From a virus, in the IMG/VR virus record IMGVR_UViG_3300035666_000092, positions 1-35,441 of that record: a stretch of DNA of 35,441 bases, one strand, 5' to 3'. This document shows positions 13,436 to 35,441 of this stretch, in pieces. Position 1 is the first letter of the stretch. The number at the start of each line of letters is the position of its first letter. The translations under genes were made by a program, and so were the position numbers. A model generated the notes under the pieces. The model had not been told where the DNA came from. It saw only the letters and a list, made by a program, of their open reading frames with translations, and did not search any database.

Positions 13436-14199
13436 TGCCTGCAGTCGCATCGCCGCGCCTGCGCCTGGAAAAGCAGGCGACGGGCGAAAACACCAACACC
13501 TGGGGGGTGCGCCTGAACGACGGCGGCCTCGAGCTGATCGACCAAGCGATTGCTGGTGTAACAACAAAGGCTGTGACTGGCGCAGCGGCGCTGACCGCTA
13601 CCAACTTCGCAGCCGACGAAGCGCGTAGCGCTGTGCTGCGGCTGACGGGCGACGGAGGCACGCTCACGATCCCGGCTGTGCAGAAGGTGTATCTGGTCGA
13701 CAATGCCTGCACCGGCGCGGTGACGATCACTGCCGGCGCCGGCGCAGCGGTGGTGCAGCCGGGGGAAGTGGCGCCAATCTATTGCGACGGCGTCGTGGTG
13801 CGGCGCATCGGCATTCGCAATTTTGGCGACGCGGTGTTGAAGGCTGCGGCCGATCCCGTCGACGCCACCGACATCGCCAATCGCAGATGGGTTCTCGCGC
13901 AGATCGGCGCGGTGGCGCAGTCGCTCTGGCTGCCGCGCACCAGCGCGATCGTGGCGGCGGCAGGCGATCGCATCCTGGCCGACACCAGCGCCGGCGCTTG
14001 GACCCTTACGCTGCCGCCGACGCCGACCACGGGCATGGAAGTGCAGGTGATCGACGCGCGCGCGACATGGCACACCAACGCGCTGACGATCGCGCGCAAC
14101 GGCGCGACGATCGCCGATCTCGCGGAGGATCTGATTTGCGATCTGCGCGCTGCGCGCGTGTCGTTGGTTTACACCGGCGCGACCTGGGCGGTCGGCTAA
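13435..14199 (+). CDS. Minor tail/structural protein, 254 aa
   Basis: The N-terminus PRLRLEKQATGENTNTWGVR followed by LNDGGLELIDQAI is a recurrent motif of phage tail and fibre-base proteins (Gxx-NTWG...LN). Beta-rich body with repeats of the kind GAVTITAGAGAAV. It follows the adaptor region, so it may be part of the tail knob or fibre attachment. Exact role not resolvable. Confidence 0.6.
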   Translation: MPAVASPRLRLEKQATGENTNTWGVRLNDGGLELIDQAIAGVTTKAVTGAAALTATNFAADEARSAVLRLTGDGGTLTIPAVQKVYLVDNACTGAVTITAGAGAAVVQPGEVAPIYCDGVVVRRIGIRNFGDAVLKAAADPVDATDIANRRWVLAQIGAVAQSLWLPRTSAIVAAAGDRILADTSAGAWTLTLPPTPTTGMEVQVIDARATWHTNALTIARNGATIADLAEDLICDLRAARVSLVYTGATWAVG

Positions 14200-17722: not shown

Positions 17723-19291
17723 ATGTTCACAAGCCCAACCTTTGATCGTCAGCAGCGCTTGCGAGCGGTTATGCAGCTGATAGGGCGCGATCCTTCTGCT
17801 GCGCTGATGATGCTGACGCAGGGCACGCCAGGTGCGACGCCAGGTGCGACGCCAGGTGCGACGCCAGGTGCGACGCCAGGTGCGACGCCAGGTGCGACGC
17901 CAGGTGCGACGCCAGGTGCGACGCCAGGTGCGACGCCAGGTGCGACGCCAGGTGCGACGCCAAGTGGGCGGCAGCCTATGCAGCCAGCGGCTCCACTGCC
18001 GCAGGCAATCACGGGAAGCTCGCCGTTCTCGCCGCCGCCGCGCAATCCTGCGGTGGCGGCGGTTACGGCGCAGCAGCCACAAGCTGGACCCGAAGCGCCA
18101 ATGAACGCCGACGACGCCGAAATTGTGGTAACGACTCGACCCGTCGCGCGCACGCCGTTTGATGCTGGGTTGTTGGCTATGGATCGGGCAGCCAATCCGG
18201 TGAAACCTGCCGAACTGACGTGGGGTGATCGATTGCAGATCGCCGGCGCTACTCTGCAACAAATGGGGCGGCCCGATAATCAGATCGCTACGACAATGAC
18301 GGGGATTCGCACGCTGTCACGAGAGCAAGCGCAGGAGGAAGAGCGCAAGCGCCTGTCGGCGGCTCAGATCGCCGGCGTGCGCAACATAATCGATCAGGAG
18401 CGGCTGCGCTGGGAGGAAGACGACAACCCCGCCAAGCCTCGATGGGAGCAGACTTGGACAATGCAAATGGCGCGCCTTGCGTCGAGCCCCGACGAGTTTT
18501 TTCGCTTATATGCCGCGCGCCAGGAGGCCGAAGCGGGCCGCGACATTCAGCGCAGCCAGCTGAATCAAGAGGGCGCGCAGTTCAACAGAGCCTACGCCCA
18601 GCGCGATCGGCATTTCGACGCCGAGCACAACCTGAATCAAAAGCAGGCAGATCGCAATTATGAGCTGGGACAGGGCCAGCTAAATGTGGAAAGAACCAAC
18701 GCGGAAACGCGCCGGCGGGATGTCGACAACAATATCAACAACCTAGCCGGCAAGGACCCATTGCAAAGAGCGCTGTTGAACGCCGATGTCAGTGCGCTGA
18801 AGGACATGGACGACGAAACGGAAAAACTGACTAAGGTCGCGGAATCTCTGCAGCAGTTCGGAAGACTGAACGCGCAGCAACCAACCGGCTTTATGGCGTC
18901 AGGCACGCCGATCCTGGGGATCGCGCCCAATCAAAACTTCCAGCAGATGCAAGTGATCCAGAATGCGCTGTTTCCGGTGCTCGGTGAGCTGATTCGCGGT
19001 ACACTGTCGGAGACCGACGCGTACCGCGTTGAGCGTGGGACTGTGCATGTCGACAACAGCACAGAAACCAACCAAGCGATCGTGCGGGTCGGCGTCGAGG
19101 CAGCGCGGCGGGCGCAAGAGCGCTCAACGCTGGCGCGGGAATACCTGCGCACTCAGAGGAACCTTGACACATTCAACCGACATTGGGCCGCATACGTGGG
19201 CGAAGTCAGCGCCTGGTCGGATGATCCGAAGAAGCCGCCGAAAACTTTTGCGCAGTGGATGCGTGATAAGACCGGCGGAGGCGCCCAATGA
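17723..19291 (+). CDS. Internal virion (ejection) protein with TPGA repeat tract
   Basis: Helical, charged protein of 522 residues. After an N-terminal helix (DRQQRLRAVMQLIGRDPSAA) comes a tandem TPGA tract (residues ~35-82) and a Pro-rich linker, then a conserved-looking piece (LTWGDRLQIAGATLQQMG) followed by long coiled-coil helices (QARREAE-like segments, NLNQKQADRNYELGQGQLN). Size, composition and neighbours fit the proteins that podoviruses inject ahead of their DNA. It ends in an ATGA overlap with the next large internal protein. Confidence 0.7.
   Translation: MFTSPTFDRQQRLRAVMQLIGRDPSAALMMLTQGTPGATPGATPGATPGATPGATPGATPGATPGATPGATPGATPGATPSGRQPMQPAAPLPQAITGSSPFSPPPRNPAVAAVTAQQPQAGPEAPMNADDAEIVVTTRPVARTPFDAGLLAMDRAANPVKPAELTWGDRLQIAGATLQQMGRPDNQIATTMTGIRTLSREQAQEEERKRLSAAQIAGVRNIIDQERLRWEEDDNPAKPRWEQTWTMQMARLASSPDEFFRLYAARQEAEAGRDIQRSQLNQEGAQFNRAYAQRDRHFDAEHNLNQKQADRNYELGQGQLNVERTNAETRRRDVDNNINNLAGKDPLQRALLNADVSALKDMDDETEKLTKVAESLQQFGRLNAQQPTGFMASGTPILGIAPNQNFQQMQVIQNALFPVLGELIRGTLSETDAYRVERGTVHVDNSTETNQAIVRVGVEAARRAQERSTLAREYLRTQRNLDTFNRHWAAYVGEVSAWSDDPKKPPKTFAQWMRDKTGGGAQ
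17825..17968 (+). repeat. 12-bp tandem repeat coding for TPGA (11 perfect units)
   Basis: Eleven exact copies of ACGCCAGGTGCG at 17825-17956, then one degenerate copy (ACGCCAAGTGGG) to 17968. The unit is in frame, so copy-number changes alter only linker length. The opposite strand reads as open frames of repetitive sequence through it, which are artefacts of the repeat. Confidence 0.95.
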
Positions 19292-21606: not shown

Positions 21607-23564
21607 GCAGACAGCGTAACCCGTGGCTGCCGAGCCCAGAAGCACTGTTCACGGGCGTGGGCGACACCGCGGCGGGCTTTGTGCAGGGCGCGTCGTTTAA
21701 CTTCCTCGACGATCTGCTGCGCGCGGTGACGCAGAACGAGCAGGCCGACAACTTTTTGGCCGAGGCGCAGGCGCGCAATCCGTTCTGGTACGGCGCGGGC
21801 AATTTTGCCGGCGCGCTCACTGGACCAATGAAAATCCCATTCCCGCGCGGCGACTTTGTGCAGGCCGGCGTGGCCAGCGCGCTCGATGCTCTACCCACGC
21901 GGCTTTTAGCCAAGGGGTTGCGCGGCACCAGCGACGATCTCAGCGCCTTGACGGCCGGGCAGTTTTTGAAACGCGCGGCAGCGAATGACGCGGCCGCTGG
22001 CGGGCTCTACGCCGCCGGCGGCTATGATGTGGCGGAAGACGGCGGCGACGACAGCGCGCTGACGCTAGCGCAAAAAGCGCTGGTGCATGGCGCTGCGGGC
22101 GCGGCGGCGGGGGCTGCCTCTGCTGCGGCGATCCCGGCGTTAGGGCGCTATTGGCAGCGGTCACAGCTCAATGCACCTACAGCGCGCGGTGAAGCTCCGC
22201 TCGATGCGCCGTTGGCGTTGACGCCGGCAACGCTGGCTGGCCGAAATTTGACGCGCGCTCAGCCCGAGGAATTGCGCGAAGCGGCGTTTGGGCTAGTCGA
22301 TGAGGCGTTGGCGCGCGACGAGGCCATTCGCAGATTGCAGAGCGTCGACCCGGTAATCCAGACCGGCATGCCGGTTCGCACCGTTTTGGACGCTGCCGGG
22401 CCCAATGTGCAATCGCTGTTTGGCGTCATCGCGCGAGATCCTGAGGGCCGCGCGATGCTGCTGGACCACGTAGCAAATAGCGCGCGTGAGAATGTGCGCG
22501 CCAAGCTGGCCGCGCTGCACTTTGACGGTCTGCCTGTCAGCACGCGGCGCGTCGTGCAGGATGGCGAGAAGACGGTTACGCGGCCACTGTTGAAGCCATC
22601 GACCAGCCTGGTGCAGGATCTGGTCGACGCGATCGATGATCCCGACGCGCACCAGCAATGGCTGCGGCTGGCCAAAACGCTGCATAAAAGCGGCCGTACA
22701 GCGCCGCCGCAGCTCAAGCAGCGGGCCAACGAGACAGACGCAGGCTTTGCTGATCGCCAACGGGCGCAGGCGGACGCTTTTGAACGAGACCGGCCGAGGC
22801 GGGACGCGGCAACCACCGCGCGGCGTGAGGAGGCCCGTGATTTGGCGCAACAGGTGGTGCACGGATTAAAGCAGCGGGTCGATCGGGCTTCGGGTGAAGA
22901 GGCGTTGGAGCTCTTTCGCCGTCTGGAGAACGGCGATCTGGCCGAAAAACTGCGCGCGGTGGGCTTGCGTATTGAGGCGCCAAAAGATCTCAGCGCAGGC
23001 CTGGCGCGCAGCGATCAAAGCCTGCGCGCCGTGGTAGGTGCAGGCGCCAACCCAAGCTTTATGCGTGTGGTCGAGCAGGTGACGCGCGACCCGAAGACTG
23101 CAGCGCCTGTACGCGGGCGCAGCGCTATGGAGGCGACGGAGGACAATTTGACAGCGCGCAGCCCTAATCGGCGGGCGGTGGGCCGCGAGGATCTCAGTGA
23201 CGCGCCGCCGGCGCCAGTGGCGCCTGAACTGCGAAATTATTTGGTCGATGCGCTCACGGCGCCGCGCCGTTTGAGCTTTGTGCCAGCGTCGCGCAGCGAA
23301 GCGCCGCTGCTGGGGCTGGCCCCGGACTTCACGCCGCGCCGCGTAGATTGGAGGGCTGCGACAACGGGCGCCGACAAAGGTTTCTACTATGCGGGCAAGG
23401 GGCTGCCGATCCTGGGCGATCAAATCATTACCAGCGACGACAACGTCGCAACGGGTTTTTTTGATTTGGTTCGGTATTATCTTGACCTGGCGCGCGAGCA
23501 GGGGCAAACATCACGAAATGCAACTTCGCGAAATCCTTGGCTTCCTGCGTTCGACGCAGCGTAA
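21603..23564 (+). CDS. Large internal virion (ejection) protein, 653 aa
   Basis: ATG overlaps the previous stop. The N-terminus has GVGDTAAGFVQGASFNFLDD, comparable to GGITDAATLGFDDEIIG in the preceding protein, then a glycine/alanine-rich hydrophobic stretch (GAAGAAAGAASAAAIPALG) and a long helical body. The segment VLDAAGPNVQSLFGVIARD followed by GRAMLLDHVANSARENVRAK matches a segment of the 772-residue protein, so the two are paralogues or share a domain. Its end (NPWLPAFDAA) resembles its own start (NPWLPSPEAL). Expected role: delivery of DNA through the envelope. Confidence 0.7.
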   Translation: MSRQRNPWLPSPEALFTGVGDTAAGFVQGASFNFLDDLLRAVTQNEQADNFLAEAQARNPFWYGAGNFAGALTGPMKIPFPRGDFVQAGVASALDALPTRLLAKGLRGTSDDLSALTAGQFLKRAAANDAAAGGLYAAGGYDVAEDGGDDSALTLAQKALVHGAAGAAAGAASAAAIPALGRYWQRSQLNAPTARGEAPLDAPLALTPATLAGRNLTRAQPEELREAAFGLVDEALARDEAIRRLQSVDPVIQTGMPVRTVLDAAGPNVQSLFGVIARDPEGRAMLLDHVANSARENVRAKLAALHFDGLPVSTRRVVQDGEKTVTRPLLKPSTSLVQDLVDAIDDPDAHQQWLRLAKTLHKSGRTAPPQLKQRANETDAGFADRQRAQADAFERDRPRRDAATTARREEARDLAQQVVHGLKQRVDRASGEEALELFRRLENGDLAEKLRAVGLRIEAPKDLSAGLARSDQSLRAVVGAGANPSFMRVVEQVTRDPKTAAPVRGRSAMEATEDNLTARSPNRRAVGREDLSDAPPAPVAPELRNYLVDALTAPRRLSFVPASRSEAPLLGLAPDFTPRRVDWRAATTGADKGFYYAGKGLPILGDQIITSDDNVATGFFDLVRYYLDLAREQGQTSRNATSRNPWLPAFDAA

Positions 23565-23760
23565 CTGGTCCCGCCGCCTTGCGGATTGGGCGTGGGCTGG
23601 CGTGTATGCGCTGTTGGCGGCCTGGGCGTTTCTGGCGTTTGGATCTCTTGCGGTCGAGGCGAGCTCGGAGAATGTGGCGCAGGCGGGCGCGTGGGCTGTG
23701 GCCGCTGGTGCGGTCTCCGCTTTTTTGTGTTGCGGCGTGTGGGACCGGCTGCGGCGCTAG
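23518..23760 (+). CDS. Two-TM small membrane protein, holin-like, 80 aa
   Basis: The ATG at 23518 starts a frame overlapping the end of the previous gene by 47 bp. A basic N-terminus (LREILGFLRSTQRNWSRR) is followed by hydrophobic segments at about residues 24-46 and 57-75 and a charged end (WDRLRR). Two membrane segments with short charged ends is the usual size and plan of class II holins, but such proteins have many roles and the position, next to ejection proteins and not lysis genes, weakens the call. Confidence 0.55.
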   Translation: MQLREILGFLRSTQRNWSRRLADWAWAGVYALLAAWAFLAFGSLAVEASSENVAQAGAWAVAAGAVSAFLCCGVWDRLRR

Positions 23761-23763
23761 GCC

Positions 23764-24114
23764 ATGAGCCGCGCGCGCCGGTTTTTATATGAGGCGACCT
23801 TAAAGGTGGCCGAGCTGCTGATCTTTGCGGTGGCCATCGTCCCTACGGTGTTTGTGGTGCACTCTGAAGCGCCGACATGGATTAAGGCGGGCTGCCTTGG
23901 TCTCATGCTGGCTTGGATGTGGTTTTGGTACGCTCGCGCTCAGAAGACGCGCAAAAGGTTTTTTGTCGACAGTTTTGACCTTGACGAGGTGGCGCAGCAC
24001 GCGCCGCCTGTGCGCGACCACCCGCCCTCACCGCGCGCGCGGCCTGACGCCAAAATGCGCTATCTGCGCCGCCTGCGCGCAATCGCCGATAGGCGCCCGT
24101 TCGACGGCGCTTAA
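23764..24114 (+). CDS. Two-TM membrane protein, 116 aa
   Basis: Follows the previous stop by three bases. Hydrophobic segments at about 15-32 (KVAELLIFAVAIVPTVFVV) and 41-58 (IKAGCLGLMLAWMWFWY), then a basic cytoplasmic tail (RYLRRLRAIADRRPF). No family recognised; could act in lysis with the preceding two-TM gene. Confidence 0.6.
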   Translation: MSRARRFLYEATLKVAELLIFAVAIVPTVFVVHSEAPTWIKAGCLGLMLAWMWFWYARAQKTRKRFFVDSFDLDEVAQHAPPVRDHPPSPRARPDAKMRYLRRLRAIADRRPFDGA

Positions 24115-26837: not shown

Positions 26838-27794
26838 ATGAGCGACGCGACAGGCGGCGACCGCGATCCCGCGCCGATTGTGCTTAGCCCGGTCGATCTC
26901 GTCGTGGAGGATCATGTGGGGGACATCGCGCTGACCATCTTCGCTTTTGTGGTTATCGCTGGCTTGGCTGCCTCGTTTCTGCCGTCGCCGTGGAATTGGA
27001 TTGTGCCGCTCATGGTGTTGGCGCCGCCTCTAATCATGATGGCCGCGACGCCGCGTTCACGCGCCTGGGCGGGCCGCATATTAAGCGCTGTTGCTGTGGC
27101 CATGCGTGTCATCGCGCAGCACCTGCGCGGATGGTGGGCGCGTCGCAAGCAGCGCTGGGGCGCGGCGTTGTACGCGCTGCGCCGCTGGCTGCGCCTGGCG
27201 GTGGGTAAGAAGGAGCCGGAGGCGCTGGCCGAGATGGCGAGCGTACAGGGCTTTCTCGCGGCCACGCCGCTCAGCCCGTTCCGCCTGATCGCGACGATCG
27301 CCGGCGGCGCCGCGGCGTTGTTTGCCTCGCTGTGGGGCTGGGCGGCGAATGTCACAATACCAGACCTTGAAAAGAAGCTGACGGCGCAGACCGCGTTGGC
27401 GAGTGAGGCGATCGACGCCAATGCAGGCCTGGCGGCGCGCATTCAGGCCGCTGAGACCGCGGCCGAGCAGGCGCGGGCCCAGCTGACGACGCATCGCAAT
27501 GCGGTGCTGGCCGAAACCGACGCCGCCGCCCGTCGCGCTCAGGCGCGCACGGCGGCGCGCATGCGTACCTTGTCTAAGCAAGCGGAGATCCTCGATGCGG
27601 GCCGCCGTACTGATGATGCTGAGCCTTTCGATGGCGAGCGCTGGCTGCGCGAGCGCGCCGCCCGTGCTGACCAAGACAGCCCCGTGCCCGGTGTGTCCGG
27701 CGCCGGTGCTGCCGCCGCCGCCGCCGATCGAGTGCCTGACGGAGCTCGAGCCCATGCCGCCGGCGACGGCGAGCGCGCCCCGCAGCCGCGCTGA
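26838..27794 (+). CDS. Inner-membrane spanin (Rz-like) with extra N-terminal membrane hairpin, 318 aa
   Basis: Three hydrophobic segments (about residues 29-48, 53-70 and 147-169), with a strongly positive loop between the second and third (RGWWARRKQRW, YALRRWLRLAVGKK) that should stay in the cytoplasm, then a periplasmic coiled coil (about 174-255: LEKKLTAQTALASEAIDANA and RIQAAETAAEQARAQL). The C-terminal third overlaps, in another frame, a lipoprotein gene: the nested Rz/Rz1 arrangement of spanin pairs. Ordinary inner spanins are ~150 residues with one membrane segment; the N-terminal hairpin resembles a holin, so a holin-spanin fusion is possible. Spanins fuse inner and outer membrane in the last step of lysis. 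Confidence 0.65.
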   Translation: MSDATGGDRDPAPIVLSPVDLVVEDHVGDIALTIFAFVVIAGLAASFLPSPWNWIVPLMVLAPPLIMMAATPRSRAWAGRILSAVAVAMRVIAQHLRGWWARRKQRWGAALYALRRWLRLAVGKKEPEALAEMASVQGFLAATPLSPFRLIATIAGGAAALFASLWGWAANVTIPDLEKKLTAQTALASEAIDANAGLAARIQAAETAAEQARAQLTTHRNAVLAETDAAARRAQARTAARMRTLSKQAEILDAGRRTDDAEPFDGERWLRERAARADQDSPVPGVSGAGAAAAAADRVPDGARAHAAGDGERAPQPR

Positions 27795-27909
27795 AGCGCT
27801 TGCGCTGTCGGACGCCGAGAACCTGGCGCTGCGCGATTGGGGCCGCGCAGCGGTGGAGGTGCACGCCGTGTGCGTCGCCCATCACCGCGCGCAGGTGCCG
27901 CGAGACTAA
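27595..27909 (+). CDS. Outer-membrane spanin (Rz1-like lipoprotein), 104 aa, overlapping the inner spanin gene
   Basis: The ATG at 27595 has a good ribosome site (GGAG, 8-base spacer). Residues 1-17 form a signal peptide and MASAGC gives a lipobox, with Cys18 as the lipidated residue. The mature part is Pro-rich (SAPPVLTKTAPCPVCPAP, then PPPPPIECLTELEPMPPATA), as usual in outer spanins, and carries several Cys residues. The first 200 bp lie inside the inner spanin gene in a different frame and 115 bp extend beyond it. It would contact the periplasmic coil of the inner spanin across the cell wall. The earlier in-frame start at 27499 gives an arginine-rich extension and no signal peptide, so I reject it. 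Confidence 0.75.
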   Translation: MRAAVLMMLSLSMASAGCASAPPVLTKTAPCPVCPAPVLPPPPPIECLTELEPMPPATASAPRSRAEALALSDAENLALRDWGRAAVEVHAVCVAHHRAQVPRD

Positions 27910-27929: not shown

Positions 27930-28331
27930 ATGAACAACGAATATCACGACCAGGGCACCTGGCGCGACAGCGTCGAGCGGCGCATCGGGCAGCTGGGCGC
28001 TGGTCTGGACGCTGCGCGCCACACCGACGATCGCCACCACGGCGAGCTGCGCGACCTTAAGGCGAGCATTGAGACGTTGCGAACGGATCTGTCGACGCAG
28101 ATCGCCACGTCGGTGGGCGGGCTGCGCGCTGATCTGATGGCGCTGCGCACCGCGCGGGCGATGCAGGACGCGCCAGCGGCCGCCCCTGCCTCGTCTGCGT
28201 CGCTCGATTGGAAGCTGGTGGCGACGATTGCCGCTCTGCTTGCCGGCGCCCTCGTGGGCATTGGGATTTCTGTCGGGCGCTCTTGGCAGCTCGATGACAC
28301 CAAGGCGATCGTGCGGACAATCGCACCATGA
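27930..28331 (+). CDS. Coiled-coil protein with C-terminal membrane segment, 133 aa
   Basis: The natural start is the ATG at 27930 (a longer frame to 27837 is basic and unlikely). Residues 10-80 are heptad-like (VERRIGQLGAGLDAARH, RDLKASIETLRTDLSTQIA), followed by an Ala/Ser linker and a hydrophobic segment (LVATIAALLAGALVGIGISV, ~96-115) and a short charged end. The plan (soluble coil plus C-terminal anchor) resembles phage hemolysin-XhlA-type accessory proteins, a weak resemblance. Its stop overlaps the next ATG (ATGA), coupling it to the four-TM gene. Confidence 0.55.
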   Translation: MNNEYHDQGTWRDSVERRIGQLGAGLDAARHTDDRHHGELRDLKASIETLRTDLSTQIATSVGGLRADLMALRTARAMQDAPAAAPASSASLDWKLVATIAALLAGALVGIGISVGRSWQLDDTKAIVRTIAP

Positions 28332-29626
28332 TTGGACCGTTCAAACGGGCGGCGGCGCCCGACAAGCCGCGGTGGGACAAGATCGACCCTGTGCAAGAGG
28401 CGATCGAGCTCGCCAAGATCGCTAAGCTGGCGGCCGATTGCGTGGGGCTGTTCTCGCTGTTCGCGCTGGTGGTGGTGTTTTCGGACATCGCCGGCGCCAA
28501 GCATTTGACCTGGTCGCTAGACGCAATCGGGCCGGCGTCGGGCCTGGCCTGGTCGCTGCACATACCGTGGCTGCCCTTTCTGCTGGCCGGCGCTTTTGGC
28601 GTGTGGATCTTCAACCGCCATGGGCTGCGGATCCTGCTCACGCTGCGCTTTGCCGCACCCGATCAGCGCCGCTGGATGGGCCTTGCCTGGGGCGGCCGCG
28701 ACGCGACGCCGATCGCCAAGGCGTCGGTGGCGCTGGCGTTGCTGGCGTTTAGTGCACTGATCGTGGTGACCGCCACCAAGTTCCAAGACGGCGGGCGGTC
28801 TGCCGATGCACGCCAGGCCGCGATCGTCGAGGAGACCGCCGCGCGCGATCGCGCTGCGGTGCAGGCGGAGCTCGACAGCGTGACGCGCGACCTGGAGACA
28901 CTGACGCAGCCGCGAGACGACACGCCAAACTTCCAGACCCAGGCCGCGCGCGCCGGCGAGGGCGCCTGGACCGCGCGCGTGCAGGCCACCGCCGACGCCA
29001 CGCTGCGCGCCCGCCTCGGCGCTGAGACGCCCACCGCGGCTCGCGCCGACGCGCTGCGCACGCGAGAGGCCGCCTTGCGACAGGAGCTGGCTGCGGCGCC
29101 CGTGACGGCGGCTGTGGCACGGGAGGTGGATGTCGATCGCGGCGCGACCGATTGGATCGTCGGCGCGTTCGCGTCGATCCCGTTGTGGTTTGCGGTGGCC
29201 ACCGAGTTCCTGGCCCTGATCATGAAGCTGGTGGAGGTGCTGCTGCTGCGCCGGGCGCAGGCAGCCTGGCTGGCGGCTGAGGCTGAGCCCATTGCAGCGC
29301 CGCCACCGTCGCGCACTGACGCCGACGGCGAGCGCCAGCGGCTGCGCTGGTCACGCCGGCCGGCAGCTGCGCCCTTGGAGCGGGCCGCGATGCCGCCTGA
29401 GCCACCGCCGCCCCAGGAGCCGCCGAGCGAGCCCCCCACTGAGCCCGCCCGCAAGCGCGCCCTGAAAGCGCTGCCGGAGCCGACGCCGGAGGAGCTCGCG
29501 GCCTGGCGCGGCCTGCAGGATGAAGACGAGGCGACGCAGGACGACGTTGCGCCCGACGCCGCGGCTGATGATGTTGCAGGAGACACGGCGACCGTGGTCG
29601 CTGACGATGAGCGGAGCGCTGCCTGA
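28328..29626 (+). CDS. Polytopic membrane protein with coiled-coil domain and Pro/acidic tail, 432 aa
   Basis: Membrane segments at about residues 34-53, 77-94, 130-149 and 273-303. Between the third and fourth lies a heptad-like region (160-255: ARQAAIVEETAARDRAAVQA, ELDSVTRDLETLTQP). If the N-terminus is cytoplasmic, the coil is periplasmic and the last ~120 residues (Pro-rich then acidic: PPEPPPPQEPPSEPPTEP, ending ATQDDVAPDAAADD) are cytoplasmic. ATG overlaps the previous stop, and its own stop overlaps the Hsp70 ATG (TGATG), so the Hsp70 is coupled to it. No known family recognised; no J-domain HPD motif in it. It is the natural candidate partner of the Hsp70 at the membrane. Confidence 0.55.
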   Translation: MIGPFKRAAAPDKPRWDKIDPVQEAIELAKIAKLAADCVGLFSLFALVVVFSDIAGAKHLTWSLDAIGPASGLAWSLHIPWLPFLLAGAFGVWIFNRHGLRILLTLRFAAPDQRRWMGLAWGGRDATPIAKASVALALLAFSALIVVTATKFQDGGRSADARQAAIVEETAARDRAAVQAELDSVTRDLETLTQPRDDTPNFQTQAARAGEGAWTARVQATADATLRARLGAETPTAARADALRTREAALRQELAAAPVTAAVAREVDVDRGATDWIVGAFASIPLWFAVATEFLALIMKLVEVLLLRRAQAAWLAAEAEPIAAPPPSRTDADGERQRLRWSRRPAAAPLERAAMPPEPPPPQEPPSEPPTEPARKRALKALPEPTPEELAAWRGLQDEDEATQDDVAPDAAADDVAGDTATVVADDERSAA

Positions 29627-31203
29627 TGGCGATCATTCTGGGTGTGGATCTCGGCACGACCAATAGCGTGCAGGCGGTGTATGAGCGCGGCCAGCCGCGG
29701 GTGATCCTAAGCGGCGACGATCAGCGCAGCCCGGTGACGCCGACGGTTGTGGCGCAGACCGAAGGCGGCGCGACGATCGTCGGCGCGCCAGCGCGCTGGC
29801 AGGCGCAGACCAATGCGAGGTTTACCTATTCCAGCCTAAAGCGGATCCTGGGCCGCAAGTTCGATGAGCCGATCGTAGCTGCGCAGGCCGCTTATGCGCC
29901 GTACGAGCTCGCGCCAGGCCCTGATGGCCAGGCTTGGGTACGCGGCCGTGATGGCCTGCAGAGCCCGGAGGCGCTGCTGGCGCTGGTGTTGCGCAAGCTG
30001 AAGGCGGAGGCCGAAGCCCGGTTTGGGCGCGCGGTGGGCGATTGCGTGCTCACAGCGCCCGCCCATTTTGGCGTCGCCCAGAAAGCGGCCTTGACGGCGG
30101 CAGCTGAAGCGGCGGGCCTGCGCGTGCGGCGATTGCTGCCGGAGCCCAGCGCTGCGGCGCTGGCCTATGGCTATGATCGCGGGGCGAATAAGACCATCGC
30201 GGTCTTTGACTTCGGCGGCGGGACCTTCGACGTCTCCATCCTACGTGTGAAAGGCGCCCGCTTCGACATTTTGGCGACCGCGGGCGATCCCTTTCTGGGT
30301 GGCGATGACGTCGATCGGCGCATCGCTGAGCGGCTGCATGGCGACTTCGAGCGCGAGCACGGCCGCAGCCTCGCCGGCGATGCCTTCCAGTTGCAGCGGC
30401 TGCGGGATGAGGCCGAGAAGGCCAAGATCCAGCTGTCGGCGGTGGAGAGCTACACGGCGGCCATCCCGTTCGTCGCTATGGATCTCGACGCGCGCCGCCA
30501 AATTGACCTGGTCCACACGCTGACAAGGGCGGATCTTGAGGCGATGACGGCGGATCTGATCGAGCGCTGCCGCGAGCCCTGCCTGCAGGCGCTGCGCAAG
30601 GCCAAGCTCGACGCCCGCGACCTCGACGAGGTGGTGCTGGTGGGCGGCATGACAGCCATGCCGGCAGTGCGCGCCGTGGTGCGCGAAGTGTTTGGGCGAG
30701 AGCCGCGCAAGGATGTGCCGCCCGAGCAGGTGGTCGCCATGGGCGCGGCGCTGTACGCCGCGGCCCTGCAGGGTGAGGTGGCGTCGCTCAGCCTCTCAGA
30801 GCCGCTGCAGCACAGCCTGGGCCTGGAGGATCACACTGGCAAACTGCAGGCTATTTTGAGGGCCGGCACGCCAACGCCAGCGCGCCGCGCGGTGCGGTTC
30901 ACGACATCGCAGGACGATCAGACGGCGGTGGCGGTGCGCTTGTATGACGGCGACCTGGCCGTGGCGCGCGACAATCGCGCCTTGGGCGTTCTGATCCTCG
31001 ATGGGATCGCACCCGCGCCAGCGGGCCAGCCTGTGATCGAGGTGGAGTTCGATCTCGACGACGAGGGCGTGCTCACCGCCAGCGCGAAGGACCTCGCCAG
31101 CGAGGCGCTGGTCAGCGCCCAGGTGCATGTCGCCACAGGCCTGGACGCCGGCGCTATGGCGGCGCTGCGCGACGATGGCGCCGGCGCGGAGCTCAGCCCG
31201 TAG
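29626..31203 (+). CDS. DnaK-type Hsp70 chaperone, lid-less
   Basis: Clear Hsp70. Nucleotide-binding domain (about 1-383): phosphate loop 1 GVDLGTTNS (6-14), SSLKRILGRKF with the Lys72 counterpart of DnaK Lys70, LPEPSAAALAYG (171-182), phosphate loop 2 VFDFGGGTFDVS (193-204, with D195, T200, D202), adenosine motif VLVGGMTAMPAV (337-348). Linker region VASLSLSEPLQHSLGLE lacks the usual LLLD core. Substrate-binding beta domain ~392-503 with TTSQDDQTAVAVRLYDGD and SAKDLASE. The protein ends at 525, so the helical lid (about 100 residues in DnaK) is missing. Coupled TGATG start with the preceding membrane gene. No DnaJ or GrpE partner is encoded in the window, so host factors would be needed if it cycles normally. 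Confidence 0.95.
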   Translation: MAIILGVDLGTTNSVQAVYERGQPRVILSGDDQRSPVTPTVVAQTEGGATIVGAPARWQAQTNARFTYSSLKRILGRKFDEPIVAAQAAYAPYELAPGPDGQAWVRGRDGLQSPEALLALVLRKLKAEAEARFGRAVGDCVLTAPAHFGVAQKAALTAAAEAAGLRVRRLLPEPSAAALAYGYDRGANKTIAVFDFGGGTFDVSILRVKGARFDILATAGDPFLGGDDVDRRIAERLHGDFEREHGRSLAGDAFQLQRLRDEAEKAKIQLSAVESYTAAIPFVAMDLDARRQIDLVHTLTRADLEAMTADLIERCREPCLQALRKAKLDARDLDEVVLVGGMTAMPAVRAVVREVFGREPRKDVPPEQVVAMGAALYAAALQGEVASLSLSEPLQHSLGLEDHTGKLQAILRAGTPTPARRAVRFTTSQDDQTAVAVRLYDGDLAVARDNRALGVLILDGIAPAPAGQPVIEVEFDLDDEGVLTASAKDLASEALVSAQVHVATGLDAGAMAALRDDGAGAELSP

Positions 31204-31251
31204 CGCCATCACCAAGAGTAGCGGCCCCAAGGGCAGCCGTGGAGCCGGTTT

Positions 31252-31458
31252 GCAGTTGACACGCAAAACGGAGCTTTGCGTCGAAACAAGGCCTTATTGG
31301 CGGGTCGGTTGACGTCGCCAGCCAGCGCCAGCCGCGAAAGCGGTGGGTTTTACACACCGTTGGTCGGGGGTTCGATCCCCTCACCGCCCACCATGGCCGC
31401 CTTGCCTGCCGTGGCGGCGACCCAGGGGCCCGCGGATCGCAGTTGACGCGAAGTTGAC
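31252..31458 (+). promoter_or_regulatory. Candidate integrase arm sites: GTTGAC repeats around attP
   Basis: The hexamer GTTGAC occurs four times in one orientation: 31255-31260, 31308-31313, 31442-31447 and 31453-31458; the first and third copies share the longer GCAGTTGAC. Two flank each side of the attP core. Repeated short sites on both arms of attP are how tyrosine integrases of the lambda type bind, and the inverted repeat at 31261-31281 could bind an excisionase or bending protein. This assignment is by pattern and position only. Confidence 0.45.
31346..31393 (+). other. attP core: 3' half of tRNA-Val(UAC)
   Basis: The sequence folds as the 3' part of a tRNA: anticodon loop TTTACAC with UAC at 31351-31353, variable loop, T arm with GGGGG and CCCTC stems (one G-T pair) around TTCGATC, acceptor strand ACCGCCC, discriminator A and CCA at 31391-31393. 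The 5' half is absent and the two lower anticodon-stem pairs (positions 28-42 and 27-43) are mismatched, which puts the left limit of homology at about 31346. It is therefore an attachment core, not a working tRNA gene, next to the integrase. Integration would restore an intact host tRNA-Val. Confidence 0.85.
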
Positions 31459-31467
31459 AGAAACCGC

Positions 31468-32598
31468 TCACGGCTTGTTCTCTTCTGCTGATTTGGCGGG
31501 TCGGCCCGCCTGGGGGGTTTCGGGCTGATCGGCGGTGTCGTTTGCAGCTGCCAGCGCCGCCGAATAGGCCTCACGGGCCAGCTGCGCCTCGTCGACATAG
31601 ATCGCAGTGAGCGTCTCAACCTCTCGCTCTGACCAGCCGAGCTCCATCGCCAAGGTGCGATTGGGCACGCCCTGCCGCGCGCGGCGTGTCACCGCGTTGT
31701 GCCGCAGCCTGTGCAAGGAGCCCTCAAGGCCCAGGCGCGCAAATTCGCGATCGACCGCCTGGCCCAGACTGTCGGGCTTCCAGGGCCGCCCGTGCGCGTT
31801 GGTCAGCACGGTGGCCGCCCGTCGCGGGATGCGCTGCAGCAGCGCCGCCAGGGCCGGCGTGATGCGCACCATGGCGACCCGCCGCTTGCGCCGCCCCTTG
31901 CTGGTGGGCAGTCGGATGACGCCGGCGGCCTCGTCGATCCATGACCAAGCCAGGCGGCACAGATCCGTGCGCCTAAAGCCCGCCTCATAGGCGACCGCAA
32001 TCGCCCAGCTGACTTCCTCACGCGCACCCTCGATGGCGCGATGCACATCGGCGTCGGCCATCGGCGCGACAACAGCCGCCACATACAGCCCGCCCAGGCC
32101 TGCGGCCGGCGTGCAATCCTTGGGCAGCGCCTTCACCTCTCGGCAGTAGCGCGTGAACGCTTGCAGCGTCGTCACCAGCGCGTCGGCCTCGCGCAGGCTG
32201 CGGGCGGCCGTGTGATCGCGCAGCATGCGGCAGGCCTGCGCGCCAACATCGCGCGCCAGCTGCGCCATTGTCAGCGCACCCAAGGCCGCCTCGATCGCAT
32301 CAAGATGGCGGTGGTAGGTTTTGCGGGTGGCCGGCGCCAAGATCGCCCACTCGGGCGACATGCGCCAGCGGCGGCACAGGGCGGCGACACTGCCGGCCGG
32401 CGCGCCCGCCCGCGCTTCAGCCCAACCCTTGGCGATGTCAGGCAGCGCCTCAAGCACGGCGCGCTTTGCGTCGGCCTTGGTTGCAAAGGGGCCGGCGTCA
32501 AACAAGCGCGGCGCGCCTGCGCCCCGCCACGCATAGACATACACGCGCCAGCCGCCGGCGCGCAGCACGGGATTGATCCATAAATCACGCAGGACCAA
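31468..32598 (-). CDS. int: Tyrosine-family site-specific integrase
   Basis: Tyrosine recombinase: N-terminal arm/core-binding region with the start LVLRDLWINPVLRAGGWRVY, a helical core-binding domain around residues 90-150, and a catalytic domain with R209 (GFRRTDLCRL), K234 (TSKGRRKR), H296-x-x-R299 (LHRLRH), W322 (LGWSE) in place of the second His, and Tyr334 (IYVDE). The frame is open to 32700, but that would overlap the next gene by 115 bp; I chose the TTG at 32598 (14-bp overlap), so the start is uncertain. It inserts the phage at tRNA-Val through the attP core about 75 bp beyond its 3' end. Low-complexity C-terminal tail. Confidence 0.88.
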   Translation of the reverse strand: MVLRDLWINPVLRAGGWRVYVYAWRGAGAPRLFDAGPFATKADAKRAVLEALPDIAKGWAEARAGAPAGSVAALCRRWRMSPEWAILAPATRKTYHRHLDAIEAALGALTMAQLARDVGAQACRMLRDHTAARSLREADALVTTLQAFTRYCREVKALPKDCTPAAGLGGLYVAAVVAPMADADVHRAIEGAREEVSWAIAVAYEAGFRRTDLCRLAWSWIDEAAGVIRLPTSKGRRKRRVAMVRITPALAALLQRIPRRAATVLTNAHGRPWKPDSLGQAVDREFARLGLEGSLHRLRHNAVTRRARQGVPNRTLAMELGWSEREVETLTAIYVDEAQLAREAYSAALAAANDTADQPETPQAGRPAKSAEENKP

Positions 32599-33050: not shown

Positions 33051-33803
33051 TTAGCCGCAGCCGTAGCCGTCGGCGCTCACGACAGGCGCAGCGGCGATCG
33101 AGGCGCTGGCGCGCCTGCTGGCGGCCAGGAGTTCACACACGCCCTCAACGACGACGACGTCCACGACGGGCTCGATCGTGCAGGTGGCAATCTTGTCGGG
33201 GTGCAGACCAGCCACCGCCACGCCAGACAGGCTCACGCCCTCAGCCGCCCACCAGCGCCACATGCGGCGCGCGTGCTCGAGGCGCACGCTGTTGTCGCTC
33301 TTGGAGGCCAGGACACCCCACCAGCAGCCGCCCCAATTAGAGCGCGCGATCACCCGCTTGCCGAGCAGCGGGTGGTGCGGCGTGTTTTGGGTTAAAAGAT
33401 CGTTCAGACGTACACGGGCCTCATCCGACGGTCTGCCGGCAAGCGCCAATTCGTCGCTGTCAAGCGACGATCCGGCGTCGCTGTTCGGGTTAGTCATCAT
33501 CACGTTAAACCGCGAATCTAAGTTGGCGGCGATGGTGCCCAGCGCGCCCAAGGTGGTCGCCTCACTAGCAATGTCCGGGGCAGGGATCGGGGCCGGCGGC
33601 GTTTCAGCGGCGAGCCAGTCTTCCTGCCTAGCAATGTCCGGGGCAGGGATCGGGGCCGGCGGCGTTTCAGCGGCGAGCCAGTCTTCCTGCCTAGCAATGT
33701 CCGGGGCAGGGATCGGGGCCGGCGGCGTTTCAGCGGCGAGCCCCAGGCCCTGATACGGGGTCTGGCCAGAGTGGATTTCGTTCTCGTTAGGAATAGGGTG
33801 CAT
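33051..33803 (-). CDS. Repeat-bearing lysogeny-region protein with DUF6948-like C-terminus, 250 aa
   Basis: The ATG at 33803 has a GGAG ribosome site six bases upstream; upstream in-frame ATGs exist without one. Residues ~20-82 are a Pro-rich repeat of 21 residues (AAETPPAPIPAPDIARQEDW) in nearly three copies. The C-terminal ~120 residues (GKRVIARSNWGGCWWGVLAS, RRMWRWWAAEGVSLSGVAVA) resemble DUF6948-type phage proteins, which often end in a Gly/Tyr-rich GYG tail, here DGYGCG. Function of that family is unknown. It is downstream of the repressor gene on the same strand, with operator-like sites just before it, so it may be expressed from the prophage. Confidence 0.65.
   Translation of the reverse strand: MHPIPNENEIHSGQTPYQGLGLAAETPPAPIPAPDIARQEDWLAAETPPAPIPAPDIARQEDWLAAETPPAPIPAPDIASEATTLGALGTIAANLDSRFNVMMTNPNSDAGSSLDSDELALAGRPSDEARVRLNDLLTQNTPHHPLLGKRVIARSNWGGCWWGVLASKSDNSVRLEHARRMWRWWAAEGVSLSGVAVAGLHPDKIATCTIEPVVDVVVVEGVCELLAASRRASASIAAAPVVSADGYGCG
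33565..33742 (-). repeat. 63-bp tandem repeat (2.8 copies)
   Basis: Two exact 63-bp units (33565-33627, 33628-33690) and a third truncated unit to 33742. The unit is 21 codons, in frame, encoding the Pro-rich repeat of the protein at 33051-33803. Being exact copies, they look recently expanded and are prone to copy-number change. Confidence 0.95.
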
Positions 33804-33842
33804 GGTTTTCTCCATCGTCGCGAAGCACCGACGCGCCCTATG

Positions 33843-33887
33843 TTCTGCAAAAGCGAACATTCTGCAAGTGATTTCGTAATTACAGAA
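33843..33887. promoter_or_regulatory. Imperfect operator-like sites upstream of the repeat-bearing gene
   Basis: TTCTG occurs at 33843-33847 and 33860-33864 (both within TTCTGCAA), and CAGAA at 33883-33887. With the 5-base spacing of the main operators, TTCTG-N5-GCGAA (33843-33857) and TTCGT-N5-CAGAA (33873-33887) are imperfect palindromes of the same kind. They lie just upstream of the gene at 33051-33803, so the repressor may also act there. Confidence 0.4.
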
Positions 33888-34454: not shown

Positions 34455-34772
34455 ATGACTTCGCCACCCGACTGCACCGTCCCAGCCGCCGAGCCCGCCG
34501 CGCCGCCGCGACGGGCGCCCCGCAAGCGTCGACTGCTGCCCAAGCGCCGCGCGCTGACAGCCTGGCGCGAAAAGCTGGGCTTTAGCCAGGCGCATGTGGC
34601 GCGGCTGCTCGAGGTCAGCCGGGCGCGGGTGTGTGAGATTGAGAGCGGCCATGGCTGCTCGCTGCGGCTGGCTGTGAAGATCGAGGCGCTGACCAAGGGT
34701 GCCGTGCGCGCCGCCGACCTGGTGCGCGTGGCCCCAGCGCCGAAGCGCCGCCGCGCGGGGGGCGCGCCATGA
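34455..34772 (+). CDS. Cro-like helix-turn-helix protein, 105 aa
   Basis: After a basic, Pro/Ala-rich N-terminus (about 1-40) the HTH is clear: LTAWREKLGFSQAHVARLLE followed by VSRARVCEIESGHGCSLRLA and VKIEALTKGAVRAADLV, like Cro/YdaS-type antirepressor or early regulators. The basic end (PAPKRRRAGGAP) may also touch DNA. It is divergent from the repressor and stands first in the rightward early operon, so it most likely switches off the repressor and starts lytic growth. Its stop overlaps the next ATG (ATGA). A decayed partial copy lies at 35240-35372. Confidence 0.75.
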   Translation: MTSPPDCTVPAAEPAAPPRRAPRKRRLLPKRRALTAWREKLGFSQAHVARLLEVSRARVCEIESGHGCSLRLAVKIEALTKGAVRAADLVRVAPAPKRRRAGGAP

Positions 34773-35239: not shown

Positions 35240-35372
35240 TGGCGCGGCTGCTCGAGGTCAGCCGGGCGCGGGTGTGTGAAGATCGAGGCGCTGACCAAGG
35301 GTGCCGTGCGCGCCGCCGACCTGGTGCGCGTGGCCCCAGCGCCGAAGCGCCGCCGCGCGGGGGGCGCGCCAT
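35240..35372 (+). pseudogene. Decayed partial copy of the Cro-like gene
   Basis: 35240-35279 equals 34597-34636 and 35280 onward equals 34678-34839: the copy lacks 41 bp (34637-34677) that lie between two TGTGA direct repeats, one of which remains. The loss shifts the frame after VCE, so the helix-turn-helix is broken and the first ~47 codons of the parent are absent. A short frame (17 codons, starting at the ATG at 35226) reads through part of it and ends at 35279. Confidence 0.8.
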
Positions 35373-35441
35373 GAGCCTGCGACTGTCGAGTGTGCAGATG
35401 GCGCAGCTGGGGCGGCTGTACCGCGCCGCGCAGACGGCGAC
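35315..35441. repeat. Terminal direct repeat, right copy
   Basis: Identical to 1-127 and to 34713-34839. Together with 35275-35314 the match to the internal copy is 167 bp long (34673-34839). Joining it to position 128 closes the circle. Confidence 0.9.
35371..35441 (+). CDS. Start of orf75 (continues at position 128 after circularisation)
   Basis: Same 71 bases as 57-127: the ATG and first codons of the 75-residue gene. In the circular genome this is the same gene as the one annotated at 57-284, here cut by the window end. Confidence 0.85.
   Translation, partial: MSLRLSSVQMAQLGRLYRAAQTA

Follow-up and report, generated by a model that had tools for sequence, protein, structure and literature searches.

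The locus at positions 26838-27909 raises two questions: whether a 318-aa membrane protein and the lipoprotein encoded partly within its gene form a spanin pair, and what the additional hydrophobic segments at the N-terminus of the inner component might do. The DNA examined, all 35441 bases of an IMG/VR virus record, is referred to here as the window. Recomputation from the ORFs reproduced exactly the coordinates, the out-of-frame overlap of 200 bp and the 115 bp extension given in the initial annotation (Table 1). The lipoprotein ORF lies in the +1 frame relative to the 318-aa ORF, which follows the previous gene after a gap of 31 bp. An outer lipoprotein gene that begins inside the gene for the inner component, in another frame, and extends past its end is the arrangement of the overlapped class of two-component spanins (class traits taken from PMC6139136). 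Between about 26940 and 27420, third-position GC peaks in the 318-aa frame, the maximum then shifting to the lipoprotein frame within the overlap, so that no frameshift is indicated. The 104-aa product carries the lipobox motif MRAAVLMMLSLSMASAGC, SAGC with Cys18 and serine at -3, a lipoprotein signal assigned by motif only. Its mature part contains 16 prolines and five cysteines; besides Cys18, Cys31, Cys34, Cys47 and Cys92 would be available in the periplasm, where the i-spanin has none.

Table 1. Coordinates of the spanin-like pair, its predicted segments and neighboring candidate lysis genes.
Feature	Position	Strand	Remarks
i-spanin-like gene	26838..27794	+	318 aa, ATG, GGAGG Shine-Dalgarno six nt upstream; third-position GC backs frame
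TM1, residues 30-48	26925..26981	+	KD 2.57, rough dG -1.6
possible TM2, residues 54-72, three prolines	26997..27053	+	KD 1.68, rough dG about +4
basic loop, residues 73-148	27054..27281	+	14 K/R, 3 D/E; mostly helical in low-confidence single-sequence AlphaFold2 model
internal in-frame ATG, Met133	27234..27236	+	would give 186-aa one-TM i-spanin; GGAGG 11 nt upstream
predicted long helix, residues 147-259 (TM3 and periplasmic coil)	27276..27614	+	AlphaFold2, pLDDT 91-97 for 201-250
TM3, residues 150-168, putative anchor of periplasmic coil	27285..27341	+	KD 1.55, rough dG +1.4; weak Rz-like PHROG match begins there
o-spanin-like lipoprotein gene	27595..27909	+	104 aa, GGAG upstream; lipobox SAGC
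out-of-frame overlap of the two ORFs	27595..27794	+	200 bp
candidate holin, two-TM, class-II-holin-like layout	23518..23760	+	80 aa; no family match
candidate holin or antiholin, two-TM layout	23764..24114	+	116 aa; no significant family match
neighbor, N-terminal coil and one C-terminal TM (XhlA-like layout)	27930..28331	+	133 aa; no family match

A pair scanner detected exactly one such overlapping pair in the whole 35441-base window, and the same scanner also retrieves a pair in RHph_N2 and the one published for phiCbK. No such pair arose in 1000 synonymous-codon shuffles of the 318-aa ORF or in 40 Markov copies of the whole window; under the null models used, the overlapping pair is not due to chance. 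It should be noted that the scanner was written after the pair had been seen, with thresholds that were not blind, and the null tests are therefore checks against chance and not a blind discovery.

The C-terminal half of the inner component resembles an ordinary i-spanin, with an anchoring segment (TM3) followed by a predicted periplasmic helical domain. The sole family evidence is a weak match to the Rz-like family phrog_739 (E 0.083 for the whole 318-aa protein, 0.03 for residues 133-318), in which residues 151-232 align with profile positions 7-87 of 122, placing TM3 where ordinary Rz has its N-terminal TM. The published i-spanin gp105 of phiCbK gives a similarly weak and late Rz-like match (residues 44-116, E 0.031). 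None of these E-values is significant alone, and the informative part is their register; coil composition alone could explain the phrog_739 match. AlphaFold2 predicts helices at residues 18-45, 55-69, 72-123, 127-141 and 147-259, in a model built from the single sequence with no alignment, with a mean pLDDT of 62 and confident only for about residues 200-250. Since TM3 and the coil are modeled as one helix and the Rz-like match starts from TM3, residues 1 to approximately 140 would represent an extra N-terminal part placed ahead of an ordinary i-spanin.

Generally, i-spanins have a single N-terminal transmembrane domain, whereas here one or two additional hydrophobic segments precede the anchor. 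The initial annotation had counted three membrane segments. Hydropathy does show segments at residues 30-48, 54-72 and 150-168, but the second contains three prolines and scores poorly on our dG measure, a rough biological-scale estimate whose scale values and weighting were chosen by us; it may be re-entrant or interfacial rather than spanning. The N-terminus is acidic (1 K/R, 7 D/E), which by the positive-inside rule would place it outside. Together, the three prolines and the poor score of segment 54-72 make an N-out, two-TM topology a live rival to the N-in, three-TM topology that had been called self-consistent; the latter is plausible, but because of the weak segment and the acidic N-terminus not the sole consistent one. 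Two topologies thus remain plausible: in one the N-terminus is inside and there are three TMs, in the other it is outside, TM1 and TM3 span the membrane and segment 54-72 lies in or on it. In either predicted topology, the basic loop is inside and the coil outside, and the described very basic character of the loop ahead of the coil is borne out by its composition. An antimicrobial-peptide-like reading of this loop was dropped, its amphipathicity not being significant against shuffles.

Additional membrane segments in an i-spanin are not without precedent. The phiCbK-like phages encode inner and outer membrane spanins (gp105/gp106; gp136/gp137 in Colossus), and their inner membrane spanins carry one, possibly two additional TMDs, a hydrophobic domain presented as a trait of this group and suggested to allow coordination with the holin (PMC3556154). 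Consequently, the observation that the 318-aa protein is not the usual single-segment inner spanin is correct, but its layout had already been described. Each of the five phiCbK-like pairs examined consists of a hydrophobic N-terminal domain, a loop of 3-14 residues and an anchor TM (the anchor segment of Bajun being slightly under the scanner threshold). Features held in common with the present pair are the overlapped genes, the hydrophobic N-terminal domain, a basic loop, the anchor TM, a periplasmic helix or coil and a proline-rich lipoprotein. The two types differ in i-spanin length (318 aa here, 157-176 aa in phiCbK-like phages), in the loop, which here is about 76 residues long, basic and predicted to be helical, and in phage type, phiCbK being a large siphophage whereas the present record has LUZ24-like podovirus head genes. 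There is no sequence similarity between the present pair and the phiCbK-like spanins, BLASTP against gp105 yielding noise only, and relatives of gp105 were found in 48 phage records, all of Caulobacter or Brevundimonas phages. A weak gp105 match prompted a search with phrog_944, which was uninformative as it gave no match anywhere, controls included. Given the phiCbK-like precedent and the lack of sequence similarity, the layout is known, and novelty resides in the long basic loop and in the type of phage. Since the extra segments of phiCbK-like i-spanins have not prevented their acceptance as spanins, such segments are a variant and not a defining feature.

With P2 LysB/LysC, likened here by description (PMC3556154, PMC6139136), the pair shares an o-spanin gene that starts inside the i-spanin gene in the +1 frame and runs past it, as well as a proline-rich o-spanin. 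With lambda Rz/Rz1, it shares an anchor TM with a C-terminal periplasmic coil and a proline-rich outer lipoprotein, whereas the lambda pair is embedded and has a single TM. The N-terminal TM of lambda Rz is exchangeable and considered no more than a tether (PMC3556154).

The inner/outer spanin pair proposed initially is backed by the overlapping genes, the lipobox motif, the anchor followed by a coil, and the parallel published for phiCbK. The locus probably encodes a two-component spanin of the overlapped class, in genetic type like P2 LysB/LysC, whose inner component carries an accessory membrane module at its N-terminus. We infer a role in lysis, partner binding and a role for the hairpin along the following lines. 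The 318-aa protein would reside in the inner membrane, held by TM3, its long coil extending into the periplasm, and the 104-aa lipoprotein would sit in the outer membrane, bearing the proline-rich stretch. Both components would meet in the periplasm and, after murein degradation, drive membrane fusion, a mechanism adopted from lambda Rz/Rz1. The hydrophobic hairpin and basic loop would form an accessory membrane module ahead of an ordinary i-spanin which, by analogy with the proposal for phiCbK-like phages, most likely strengthens anchoring or oligomerization or couples the spanin to the holin.

One gene might instead give two products, the full-length protein and a one-TM i-spanin started at Met133, with the long form modulating the short one. 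The in-frame ATG lies immediately ahead of TM3 and is preceded by GGAGG, and the shorter product would have an ordinary i-spanin layout, but the Shine-Dalgarno spacing is long and other in-frame ATGs are present in the ORF, and we consider a dual product unlikely.

The initial annotation further suggested that one protein might carry out both hole formation and membrane fusion. In such a holin-spanin fusion, residues 1-132 would be a class II holin and the remainder an i-spanin; the hairpin and basic loop would make the inner membrane lesion and the same polypeptide would fuse the membranes, timing both steps from a single gene. Residues 1-132 are indeed laid out like a class II holin, with two hydrophobic segments followed by a basic tail, and the record yielded neither an endolysin nor, outside this gene, a proven holin. 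Class II holins have two TMs with both ends inside; here hydropathy fits, but the second segment is weak and proline-rich, the N-terminus is acidic and the region is fused to an i-spanin-like part. No holin family matched the whole protein (Pfam) or residues 1-132 (PHROGs), and in the related phage phiM5 a GTA-type holin is recognized by the same Pfam library. Located 3 kb upstream in tandem, two further two-TM genes with a holin-like layout are at least the equal of the 318-aa protein as holin candidates, and phiCbK-like phages have a comparable i-spanin plus a separate predicted holin gene. No paper naming a holin-spanin fusion was found in the literature searched. The claim of a protein with both activities thus gained no positive evidence, and we regard both the fusion itself and its proposed timing of the two steps as improbable.

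As for the remaining lysis system, no endolysin was recognized in Pfam and PHROG scans of annotated-size ORFs, and tblastn queries with lysozymes from phiCbK and from relatives recognized none either, so that no complete lysis cassette is recognizable at the locus. For the upstream gene P0005, taken as a possible endolysin, AlphaFold2 gave a low-confidence all-helical model. The product of the gene at 27930-28331 is a possible lysis accessory. A small phiM5 protein resembling it has a Pfam XhlA match under the cut-off. In phiM5 (MF074189), the gene at 13700-14146, annotated as 'putative spanin', looks XhlA-like with an over-extended start, and the gene ahead of it, annotated as 'putative holin', matches GTA_holin_3TM.

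Relatives of the record were sought through its virion genes. Portal, scaffold and major head protein are LUZ24-like and match PHROG families as well as phage records (phiM5, RHph_N2, LUZ24). Relatives of the major head protein are about 35-51% identical, the best about 45-51%, while scans with the portal and a 772-aa virion protein returned only a near-identical contig (L002) ending before the lysis region, or nothing. None of the lysis regions fetched from head-protein relatives encodes a homologue of the 318-aa protein, and none was found in the IMG/VR scan, the phage records, the 219-locus set or the MCP relatives. Against 28 genomes and 20 virus records, the best E-value was 0.004, from coil-only matches that were not accepted. 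The lipoprotein has no significant homologue among the fetched loci. In the 3.39 Mb of fetched lysis regions, the scanner reported 16 candidate pairs, of which the credible ones have one-TM i-spanins; a Pelagerythrobacter prophage, for example, encodes a one-TM i-spanin close to genes for a lysozyme and a two-TM protein. Several long N-terminal extensions in the relatives' candidates were rejected as over-extended GTG/TTG starts and are not additional domains.

The lack of homologues, of a recognized adjacent endolysin and of neighbors with known function would also suit an envelope protein pair unconnected with lysis, e.g. a structural or superinfection-related membrane protein and its lipoprotein partner. 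This is doubtful at best, as a lipoprotein gene overlapping that of a coil-bearing membrane protein out of frame is a hallmark spanin arrangement, and several of the few scanner candidates proved on inspection to be ordinary spanins. That a sequencing error fused a small two-TM gene with an i-spanin gene is very improbable: although the region is represented by one metagenomic record and the near-identical contig stops short of it, third-position GC stays in one frame over the junction, no stop interrupts it and the i-spanin part has no equally good start of its own.

Further features of the record lie outside the pair. The orphan gene P0004 (28328-29626, + strand, 432 aa) encodes two hydrophobic segments, a basic loop, a third segment, a coil, a fourth segment and an acidic proline-rich tail; the TM-TM-loop-TM-coil order is similar to that of the 318-aa protein, with no sequence similarity between the two. 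A full-length DnaK/Hsp70 gene (29626-31203, + strand, 525 aa, Pfam HSP70 E 4e-140) is found in this 35-kb podovirus-like record, its product about 40% identical to DnaK of other phage-collection records. The record also encodes a tyrosine integrase, and 'GEGIEPP'-kind peptides (31193-31619, - strand) by the integrase gene suggest a tRNA-derived attachment site; ARAGORN detected no complete tRNA. Tandem-repeat proteins are encoded at 17723-19291 (+) and 33051-33860 (-), with GATP units and AAETPPAPIPAPDIARQEDWL units. Close to the record end, the peptide end VKIEALTKGAVRAADLVRVAPAPKRRRAGGAP is encoded twice (34660-34772 and 35270-35374, + strand), possibly a repeat or an assembly effect.

The probable spanin pair with its accessory module would be a minor structural variation if the hairpin is a stronger anchor only. 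Finding extra i-spanin membrane segments in two unrelated phage types suggests that the feature may recur independently and have a function, perhaps as a link between holin action and membrane fusion. With the short form of phiCbK and the present long-loop form, two constructs are available for probing such a link and, if it is true that extra segments connect the two steps, spanins would do more than wait for the endolysin.
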